Part shown: positions 41,036 through 43,815 of the stretch, one piece after another
How the letters are laid out: each line of letters opens with the position of its first letter
How positions within the stretch are numbered: the stretch's first letter is position 1
From: an uncultured bacterium
GTDB taxonomy: Bacteria; Cyanobacteriota; Vampirovibrionia; Gastranaerophilales; Gastranaerophilaceae
Direction: 5' to 3'
Length of the DNA: 58,455 nt
Assembly (NCBI GenBank): GCA_902760645.1
Contig: CACWHC010000018.1
Location: 1 to 58,455, forward strand
Notes under the pieces: model-generated
Told to the model about the DNA's origin: nothing
What the model saw: only the letters and a program-made list of their open reading frames with translations
Database searches by the model: none
Program-made: the position numbers and the translations under genes

Positions 41036-42319
41036 ATGCAATTTTTAGACAAGACCAAAATAAGAGTAGTTTCAGGACGCGGCGGTAACGGTATGGTTGC
41101 ATGGCGTCGTGAAAAATATGTCGACAAAGGCGGTCCTGCCGGTGGTGATGGCGGTAAAGGCGGCGATGTATATTTGGTTGCGGATGAAAATATGTCAACA
41201 TTGATGGATTTCAAATACAAGTCCGTATTTAAGGCTGATGGTGGTGAAAACGGCGGTATCAAAAACTGTCACGGTCATTGGGCAAAAGATTTATATATAA
41301 AAGTGCCTGTCGGTACTGTTGTAAGAGATGTCAAAACAGGAAATGCCATTGCGGATTTGGTTGAACATGAACAAAAAGCCTTAGTGGCAAAAGGCGGACG
41401 GGGCGGTCGTGGTAATGCAAGATTTGCTACTGCTCAAAACAGAGCTCCTCAATATTGTGAGCCTGGTGAACCTCCTATTGAAAGAGAATTAATTCTGGAA
41501 TTAAAACTTATTGCGGATGTCGGATTGTTGGGTATGCCAAATGCCGGTAAATCAACTTTTATCAGCCGTATAAGTTCAGCAAAGCCAAAAATTGCAGATT
41601 ATCCTTTCACTACTCTTGTTCCAAATCTTGGGGTTGTACATAAACCGTCCGGTGACGGGTTTGTTGTTGCGGATATTCCGGGTCTTATAGAGGGTGCAAG
41701 CGAAGGTGTCGGATTAGGACATGAATTTTTGCGTCACGTTGAAAGATGCCGTTTCCTTGTTCATATTATTGATGTGACGGAAGCTGATCCGCTTGGTAAT
41801 TATAAAAAAATTAATGAGGAATTAAGGAAGCATTCCGAAAAACTCGCTCAGTTATATCAAATTGTTGCTCTGAATAAGATTGATGCAATAGACAATGATA
41901 AAAGAGAAGAATTATTAGAATTGTTCAAAAAGCAGGCGGAAGTTGTATTTCTTATTTCTGCCGTAACGGGTGAAAATGTTGACGATATAAAATATTTTAT
42001 GGGTCAGAAAGTTGACGAAATAGAAAAGCCTGTATCAGATATTATTGTTGAAGATGACCCTGATGCCACAAATAATGATGACAGTGCTTTTGAAATTTCA
42101 AAAGCTGCAAAAGATACATATATTATTGTCGGAGGTAAAGTTAATCGGCTTGCACAGGTTACTGATGAAAGAAATCCCGAACAGGTAATCAGATTTCAGA
42201 ATATTTTAACGGGTATGGGCGTTTTTGACAAACTGAAATCAATGGGGATAAAAGACGGTGATACTGTCATTGTGGGTAAATTAGAGTTCGCATACTATGC
42301 GGATGAATTTTTCGGTTAG
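41036..42319 (+). CDS. obgE: Obg/CgtA ribosome-assembly GTPase
   Basis: 427 residues: an N-terminal glycine-rich Obg fold (KIRVVSGRGGNGMVAWRREK; GGPAGGDGGKGGDVYL; KGGRGGRGNARFAT), a G domain with GMPNAGKSTF (G1), DIPGLIEGASEGVGLG (G3), LNKIDAID (G4) and the following SAVTGEN (G5), and a C-terminal OCT domain ending GKLEFAYYADEFFG. It acts in 50S maturation. The ATG follows GGATTAGGGA. yjbQ follows in the same direction. Confidence 0.95.
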   Translation: MQFLDKTKIRVVSGRGGNGMVAWRREKYVDKGGPAGGDGGKGGDVYLVADENMSTLMDFKYKSVFKADGGENGGIKNCHGHWAKDLYIKVPVGTVVRDVKTGNAIADLVEHEQKALVAKGGRGGRGNARFATAQNRAPQYCEPGEPPIERELILELKLIADVGLLGMPNAGKSTFISRISSAKPKIADYPFTTLVPNLGVVHKPSGDGFVVADIPGLIEGASEGVGLGHEFLRHVERCRFLVHIIDVTEADPLGNYKKINEELRKHSEKLAQLYQIVALNKIDAIDNDKREELLELFKKQAEVVFLISAVTGENVDDIKYFMGQKVDEIEKPVSDIIVEDDPDATNNDDSAFEISKAAKDTYIIVGGKVNRLAQVTDERNPEQVIRFQNILTGMGVFDKLKSMGIKDGDTVIVGKLEFAYYADEFFG

Positions 42320-42341: not shown

Positions 42342-42758
42342 ATGGCGATTATAAGTGAAAAATTTACGGTACATACAAAAGGCAATACGGATGTAATTGA
42401 CCTTACAAGATATGTTCAGAATATTGTTTATAAAAATAATCTGACAAGTGCCGTAGTGTACGTTTATGCGGCAGGAAGTACAGTCGGGATTACAAATATC
42501 GAGTTTGAACCGGGATTACTGGTTGATTTACCTGAGGCATTAGATAAAATTGCTCCTGTTGACGGGATTTACCATCATGATGAAACCTGGCATGACGGCA
42601 ACGGTTATGCACATTTAAGAGCCTCTATTGTCGGTAATAGCACTATGGTACCGCTAGTGGACGGAGTTTTGCAGCTCGGACAGTGGCAGCAGATTGTACT
42701 GGTTGATTTTGATAACAAAGCCCGTTCAAGAAATGTTTGGGTACAAATAATTTACTAG
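42342..42758 (+). CDS. yjbQ: YjbQ family protein (UPF0047)
   Basis: 138 residues of the YjbQ/UPF0047 family: FTVHTKGNTDVIDLTRYVQ, the SAVVYVYAAGSTVGITNIE strand, HHDETWHDGNGYAHLRASIV with the conserved His/Asp cluster and a GQWQQIVLVDFD end. The family is linked to secondary thiamine-phosphate synthase activity. Co-directional with obg, 22-base gap, AAAGGAGTAA ribosome site. Confidence 0.88.
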   Translation: MAIISEKFTVHTKGNTDVIDLTRYVQNIVYKNNLTSAVVYVYAAGSTVGITNIEFEPGLLVDLPEALDKIAPVDGIYHHDETWHDGNGYAHLRASIVGNSTMVPLVDGVLQLGQWQQIVLVDFDNKARSRNVWVQIIY

Positions 42759-42783: not shown

Positions 42784-42811
42784 TTGCAAAAAGCAGAAAA
42801 TAGTTTATAAT
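42784..42811 (+). promoter_or_regulatory. Promoter of prepilin-like gene
   Basis: TTGCAA (42784-42789), 16-base spacer, TATAAT (42806-42811). A GGAGG (42833-42837) and ATG 42846 follow in good spacing, so this promoter serves the G-tract reading frame. Confidence 0.6.
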
Positions 42812-42845
42812 GATAATATAGTACAAAACAGCGGAGGTTATTATT

Positions 42846-43815
42846 ATGACTAAGTTTTCACCTAGGGGGGGGGGTAAGAACCTCTCGCAGTAAGGGTTTG
42901 CAGGATTTGCAGGCTAGCCTGCATTTAGAGATGCTTCGCTCGTGGGATTTTTTAGACCACGGTGATGAAAGAATTACGCCTATTTTACGTCATCCCGAAC
43001 AGGGACCAGTAAACAGTTCATTACGGGATATTACTTTATGTCATCCCGAACTTGTTTCGGAATCTAGCCACCGTAAAACTTTAGGTAGTACTCAAAAAGA
43101 GAAGGTCGTAACAAGTAGCATGAGTCAGATGCTGAACCAAGTTCAGCATGACAAAAAGAAGAAAGCCGCGTTTACTTTGGCCGAGGTCTTGATAACCCTC
43201 GGTATTATCGGAGTTGTTGCGGCGATGACGTTGCCGACAGTAATAAGTAATTATAAAAAATCTGAAGTTACAAATAAATTAAAAGTTGTATATTCTTTAC
43301 TTAATCAAGCATATAAACTTTCAACAATTGATAACGGGTATATTAGTGAATGGCAGATTCCCAGTTCTGCAAAAGAGTATACGGAGAAATACTGGTTGCC
43401 ATATTTCAGTGGGGCAACGATTTGTTTAACCCCTGCGGAATGCGGGTATAAAAGTAATACACCATTTTATCAGGCTGATGGTACACCACATAGTACACTA
43501 ATTGATAATGACAGCTATCGTTTCCCTTTAAAATTAAAAAACGGTATATATGTTTTCTTTTCTATCGCAAAAGGTGCAGGTCCTAATAATAGATCTTCAT
43601 TAATAATTGTTGATATAAATGGTTCAAATTTACCTAATAAATTTGGTTATGACGTATTTAAATTAATAGTAACAGATAATGTAGTTTCAGGTGCGTACAG
43701 TGATTATGATGTGACCACGCAAAAAGAACAATGTGCCAGTATAGGTAGTAATTGCTTTAATCTGATACATAATAATAATTGGGAAATACCTAAAGACTAT
43801 CCGATAAAGTTTTAG
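42846..43815 (+). CDS. Type IV prepilin-like protein behind a 10-G tract
   Basis: The best start signal (promoter, GGAGG, ATG 42846) opens MTKFSPRGGGKNLSQ and stops at 42891 because of a run of ten G's (42865-42874). With nine G's the frame would join the long downstream ORF (open to 43815). That ORF contains a repeat-derived stretch (LCHPELVSES; MLNQVQHDKKK, with palindromic DNA) and then the prepilin motif KKAAFTLAEVLITLGIIGVV, its hydrophobic helix, and a pseudopilin-like globular part with a pair of cysteines near the end (QCASIGSNCFN). Internal ATGs at 43120 and 43129 lie just before the prepilin motif but lack ribosome sites. Either the gene is phase-variable and now off, or translation starts inside. 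Confidence 0.65.
42865..42874 (+). repeat. Poly-G tract (10 G)
   Basis: Ten consecutive G's in an AT-rich region, eight codons into a reading frame with strong start signals. Loss of one G joins this frame to the downstream prepilin-like ORF. Length errors in assembly are possible. Confidence 0.85.
43020..43155 (+). repeat. Dispersed palindromic repeat inside prepilin ORF
   Basis: CATCCCGAACTTGTTTCGG and ATGCTGAAC-CAA-GTTCAGCAT form hairpins; translation gives HPELVSES...MLNQVQHD, a phrase known from dispersed bacterial repeats. It forms the leader immediately before the prepilin motif. Confidence 0.6.

Follow-up and report, generated by a model that had tools for sequence, protein, structure and literature searches.

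The prepilin-like gene beginning at ATG 42846 is, on the strength of sequence comparison, highly likely to be one of ∼26 pilin genes in a large family of minor type IV pilins that undergoes slipped-strand phase variation by means of a G tract. The gene lies in a 58,455-nt stretch of DNA (the window) from a 1.96-Mb genome of 29 contigs (the source genome). The source is a gut bacterium of the Gastranaerophilales, an order related to cyanobacteria whose members do not photosynthesize. In the mechanism that we propose, the ribosome would start at the ATG of a module common to the family, translate approximately six codons and enter the G tract. With a tract of a single length class (9, 12 and so on in the window gene), the leader, the cleavage motif and the mature pilin would all be read in frame (ON), and the other lengths would end translation after 10–36 codons (OFF). 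Tract length would change by slippage during replication and, with the ∼26 genes switching independently, cells of a clone would differ in the few pilins that each displays at its surface. The pilins would be processed, assembled into pili and displayed at the surface, and the benefit may lie in evading immunity or phages or in more diverse adhesion.

The window gene and its reading frames

The original prediction had described a promoter, a GGAGG, an ATG at 42846 and ten G's, all of which can be read directly in the sequence (Table 1); the two promoter boxes agree with the consensus at 10 of 12 positions. It had also placed the tract after seven codons; the exact offset is six full codons plus one base. 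Translation of the gene at different tract lengths bore out the predicted switch: ten G's give a product of 15 aa, with the stop expected at codon 15, and nine G's give read-through across the prepilin motif as a 322-aa prepilin. At 11 G the product is 10 aa, and at 12 G the gene is ON again (322/323-aa prepilin at 9 or 12 G). Upstream, a YjbQ/UPF0047 family gene (42342-42758) sits between an obgE-like gene (41036-42319) and the window prepilin gene.

Table 1. Coordinates of features in and around the window prepilin gene
Feature	Position	Strand	Detail or basis
Sigma-70-type promoter, part of the repeated module	42784..42811	+	TTGCAA (-35) 42784-42789, 16-nt spacer, TATAAT (-10) 42806-42811
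Shine-Dalgarno GGAGG (42833-42837) and ATG (42846-42848)	42833..42848	+	Sequence; arrangement common to 31 copies
Poly-G tract, G10, proposed switch	42865..42874	+	ON at 9 or 12 G, OFF at 10 or 11 G
OFF-state short ORF at G10, 15 aa, TAA 42891-42893	42846..42893	+	Translation
Conserved 3' half of the module, TAAGAACCTCTCGCAGTAAGGGTTT...	42875..42905	+	ON frame reads VRTSRSKGL, a basic prepilin leader
Dispersed-repeat insert stretching the leader to 108 residues	42909..43160	+	ON frame open, other two frames closed
Candidate internal starts ATG 43120 and ATG 43129	43120..43131	+	17 and 14 residues upstream of the motif
Prepilin N-terminal cleavage/methylation motif AAFTLAEVLITLGIIG	43153..43230	+	PF07963, TIGR02532, own-genome match at the same coordinates
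Mature pilin-like protein, 214 aa, and stop	43171..43815	+	Alignment of 40 sequences, AlphaFold2, PDB pilin profiles

A genome-wide family of tracts in one module

Counting of tracts over the whole source genome with the patterns HG8 and HG9 gave 31 matches each; that is, there are 31 poly-G tracts, each of 9–13 G, and none of exactly 8 G. All 31 share one module, which consists of a promoter, a Shine-Dalgarno sequence, a start codon, ∼six codons, the tract and YAAR(N)CCTCTYGYRGYAAGGG, the last of which encodes in the ON frame a basic leader such as KTSRSKGLQ. Because the 31 tracts share one module and none has exactly 8 G, their number is far above chance and marks a genome-wide family. By shuffling, 0.26 runs of 8 G are expected in the window, and a chance G-run as the source of the window tract was ruled out by the 31 tracts in register. 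Alignment of 30 copies of the module revealed conservation from the -35 box to ∼45 nt past the tract, with a mean consensus of 0.90 near the -10 box and nearly nothing upstream, and this bounded conservation defines the module as a repeated ∼130-bp cassette.

A prepilin motif follows 28 of the 31 tracts; the other three modules (L011, L020 and L033) have none within ∼1.3 kb. In 26 of the 28 genes the frame is open in exactly one tract-length class, giving a long ORF of 254–405 aa, and at the remaining lengths a stop follows after 10–36 codons. The ON classes of these 26 genes cover all three residues modulo 3, and at the assembled lengths 5 genes are ON and 21 are OFF. In the two remaining genes (L010 and L030) a stop codon interrupts the frame between tract and motif; these genes, together with the three modules without a prepilin, were counted against phase variation. 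Further, 11 genes of the source genome have no in-frame ATG, GTG or TTG from the tract to the prepilin motif, and their translation must therefore cross the tract; the same absence of a start between the two holds for 101 of 103 intact genes with short leaders from other genomes. Overall, the earlier proposal of phase variation through the G tract gained strong support from this family, with its constant tract position, its one-frame rule and the tract lengths seen in a sister species (see below).

Two loci of the source genome represent two stages of loss. One (L304, C12:39724) is a tract-less derivative prepilin with an open reading frame, as though fixed in the ON state, and the other (C15:21696) is a decayed module from which both the prepilin and the tract are gone.

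The product resembles a minor type IV pilin

The window protein scored above the gathering threshold of PF07963 (25.9 bits, cut-off 21.2, E 6.8e-6) and above that of TIGR02532 (19.1 bits, cut-off 16.3), and its matches to PDB profiles are pilins, in the N-terminal part. In an alignment of 40 homologues the Glu at mature position 5 (E5) is invariant, and the mature part contains the conserved stretches DINGxKxPN and GWxIxxDYP. The high-confidence AlphaFold2 model of the mature part (pLDDT 90.9, pTM 0.84) has a 53-residue helix at 3–55 followed by a beta-sheet domain with strands at 117–174. VIA-align placed full-length pilins at weak Z scores of 3.2–4.3, amid unrelated entries, and a Foldseek search of the PDB gave no significant match, a result that we counted against the proposed explanation. 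The source genome encodes a prepilin peptidase (Peptidase_A24, C11:21864), a PilB-like ATPase (C1:73995) whose best NCBIfam model is TIGR02538 at 564 bits, below its cut-off of 675.65, and a PilT/PilU-family ATPase (C17:15045) above cut-off.

In five presumed phase-variable prepilins of the source genome (L013, L026, L028, L031 and L038), the C-terminus is an Lcl_C-like (lectin-type) domain that contains locally variable patches. A search for a diversity-generating template repeat around this lectin-like C-terminus in the five members matched only homologous genes and short repeats, none of them an obvious template.

Tract lengths and selection in a sister species

The same module is present in a species of the same genus (G012), in which 33 tract loci were analysed; 20 of these have the prepilin in one frame, and all 20 are OFF. 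We compared the two species through pairs that are best homologues by protein and differ in tract length: L016 (10 G, ON) and L117 (12 G, OFF) have 98% amino acid identity, L012 (11 G, ON) and L322 (12 G, OFF) are 96% identical, and L024 (11 G, ON) and L331 (12 G, OFF) are 74–78% identical. The best G012 homologue of the window gene (L129, 71–73% identity) also has ten G's and is also ON at nine, but differs in its leader, which has 164 residues, and in its gene neighbourhood. OFF genes stay under purifying selection, with dN/dS values of 0.06–0.25 in nine homologue pairs, pairs OFF on both sides included, and on these values dead genes were rejected as an explanation.

Variation in tract length among 96–98% identical homologues, and among near-identical modules that carry 9, 10 or 11 G, is hard to reconcile with a tract of fixed length at which transcriptional slippage or ribosomal frameshifting would yield a constant in-frame minority of product and no heritable switching. 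Both polymerases and ribosomes can slip on long runs of G, and a constant minority product would suit a family whose members are mostly out of frame as assembled and still under purifying selection. However, tract length is also tied to the ON frame of the gene, a dependence that supports the assigned start as well, and the tract-less derivative L304 remains open in frame, so we regard slippage or frameshifting at a fixed tract as very improbable. Still harder to credit is that the tract lengths are sequencing errors introduced in assembly, or that the family is dead and consists of decaying pseudogenes. Homopolymers of 10–13 are error-prone, and decay would fit the three modules without a prepilin, the two genes with a broken frame and a single relic; length errors, however, are unable to produce 31 tracts or a common module, the OFF genes have the low dN/dS values given above, and the system was found again in sampled loci of other genera, where tracts precede prepilin motifs and the leaders are unrelated to that of the source genome.

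One G012 locus (L319, G012:C14:30818) has ten G's in the signal-peptide region of a 403-aa exported protein that is not a prepilin, and is ON at that length.

Long leaders and the position of the start

Prepilin leaders are normally up to about 30 residues long. Among the 26 one-frame genes of the source genome, the leader has 17–22 residues in eight, 40–48 in six and 62–170 in twelve, the window gene being among the last. The concern raised at the outset, that a leader of ∼100 residues would be far longer than normal, can be accounted for. At 9 G the window leader has 108 residues, compared with 17–22 in the eight siblings, and is well beyond the usual length for prepilins. Its length is due to dispersed repeats inserted in frame, and pieces of the insert recur elsewhere in the source genome. 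A search for inverted-repeat arms in the window insert at 9-base seeds found none, and a palindromic element is therefore not claimed for this copy.

Two features were counted against phase variation, the length of the window leader and the pair of ATGs that lie in frame 14 and 17 residues ahead of the motif. They raise an alternative in which the window copy and the other long-leader members start downstream of the tract, here at ATG 43120 or 43129, and the tract controls the siblings only. A start at either ATG gives a leader of 14–17 residues, in keeping with the short leaders of ordinary prepilins of the source genome, and the two family genes with a stop between tract and motif have an open prepilin frame. 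We nevertheless consider a downstream start unlikely. Neither ATG has a good Shine-Dalgarno sequence, compared with 13 of 16 inspected tract-less prepilins that have one, and the six members with leaders of 40–48 residues have no internal start or a TTG only. Moreover, in all 13 inserts longer than 100 nt the ON frame is the only one of the three that is open. The window insert (taken as 296 nt) stays open on shuffling with a P of 0.003, and the product of such values over the 13 inserts is ∼1e-28, which is an overstatement since the inserts have elements in common. That the long inserts are open in the ON frame alone suggests selection for an unbroken frame from the tract-linked ATG. In the window copy, translation would probably run from ATG 42846 across the tract.

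Six genes of the source genome (L014, L018, L026, L028, L297 and L306) carry the prepilin motif twice, with an insert (FTLAEGATHVAQSAKPRRAAFTLAEV) lying between the two copies; duplications of this type are present in tract-bearing and in tract-less genes.

The repertoire is very probably biased to OFF

As judged from tract lengths, the pilin repertoire is very probably biased to OFF, such that most genes would be off at any moment. Among the unambiguous short-leader genes of 39 assemblies, 12 of 95 were ON, compared with 33 expected on permuting tract lengths among genes, and a bootstrap over assemblies gave 6–20% ON. Permutation within assemblies gave a weaker result (15.4 ON expected, P 0.02). 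By genome, the bias was not significant in the source genome alone (P 0.09) and had a P of 0.0003 in G012; over all sets, 17 of 141 genes were ON. These states were called from assemblies, where homopolymer lengths could be miscounted, but the near-equal sizes of the two OFF classes among the 95 genes (45 and 38) speak against a constant miscount of tract length.

Since tract-bearing and tract-less relatives coexist, the ∼130-bp cassette may have spread onto prepilin paralogues. We tentatively suggest, at a little under even confidence, that this spread has made the pilin repertoire of the Gastranaerophilaceae a combinatorial, OFF-biased surface display, with selection acting to silence most of the genes in any one cell.

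Relation to known phase-variable systems

Pathogens such as Neisseria, Campylobacter and Mycoplasma provide the best-documented cases of phase variation driven by repeats. Closest in target is pilC of Neisseria gonorrhoeae, which encodes a type IV pilus tip adhesin and has a poly-G in its signal-peptide region (PMC5354566). Both systems place a poly-G frameshift switch in the region coding for the secretion leader and govern a type IV pilus component, but PilC is a large adhesin from one or two loci and no prepilin, whereas the Melainabacteria system has ∼26 prepilin-like genes with one common switch module. The opa genes of the same organism, about 11 dispersed genes with CTCTT repeats in the leader region (PMC5354566, PMC3745409), are similarly a dispersed surface multigene family in which a leader repeat switches each member and cells express none to several; they differ in using a pentamer repeat, in encoding an outer-membrane barrel and in being a smaller family, compared with the G homopolymer and prepilin product described here. 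In the poly-G phasome of Campylobacter, as catalogued with PhasomeIt, there are tens of tracts per small genome, mostly 9–10 long, spread over unrelated gene groups (536 homology groups), and in one data set the proportion of ON states was near that expected from neutral drift (PMC6321876). The source genome likewise has tens of coding-strand G tracts (lengths mostly 10–11), but all are in one gene family and at one position, and ON is rare. Finally, vlhA of Mycoplasma gallisepticum has variable GAA repeats in the promoter region (PMC6258824) and resembles the pilin system in that each gene of a large family of surface proteins has its own repeat switch; its trinucleotide repeat acts at the promoter, in contrast to the translational frame switch of the pilin genes.

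The mechanism class is thus known (Neisseria pilC and opa, Campylobacter), and the scale, target and lineage appear undescribed. What differs from the known systems is that a whole prepilin repertoire is on one cassette, that the host is a member of the Melainabacteria and that ON is rare. Our literature search found no report tying Gastranaerophilales or Melainabacteria to phase variation; the paper in it that contains both Melainabacteria and phase variation concerns flagellins, and in the portions available to us the literature on pilins in Gastranaerophilales or Melainabacteria lists pilus genes only. If our account is correct, a largely uncultured gut commensal lineage gives dozens of pilin genes per genome to phase variation, most of them off together. 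Should selection indeed keep the display biased to OFF, it would be much like that of pathogen antigen families, found this time in gut commensals akin to cyanobacteria. It makes testable the idea of stochastic pilin display by commensals against IgA, phages or changing surfaces. A practical warning is that automatic annotation will label many such genes truncated.

Distribution within the family

The genome collections compared contain one genome per species. Tracts of 9 or more G occur in 158 of 191 genomes of the same family, and the count per genome ranges from 0 to 128. Across the order, a pattern of G9 and, 15–45 nt later, FTLAEVLIT-coding sequence matched 65 of 383 genomes, every one of them in this family (other families, 0 of 22), and its reversed control gave 0 matches. 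Among the matches listed from the genome collection, nearly all are Gastranaerophilales or Melainabacteria records or gut MAGs; three loci among them are labelled Fusobacterium sp. CAG:439, which we take to be a misnomer. Prepilin genes are more numerous where tracts are: the motifs number 51–92 per genome in five tract-rich genomes, compared with 6–13 in four genomes that have one tract or none.

In two species, sampled loci also included tracts inside glycosyltransferase-like genes; the poly-G lies within or near the 3' end of these genes (L107, L112, L115 and L118, in G011 and G005), as in Campylobacter. In a genome of another genus (G031), five loci (L140, L146, L152, L158 and L164) have a shared leader and carry unusually long tracts of 14–20 G.
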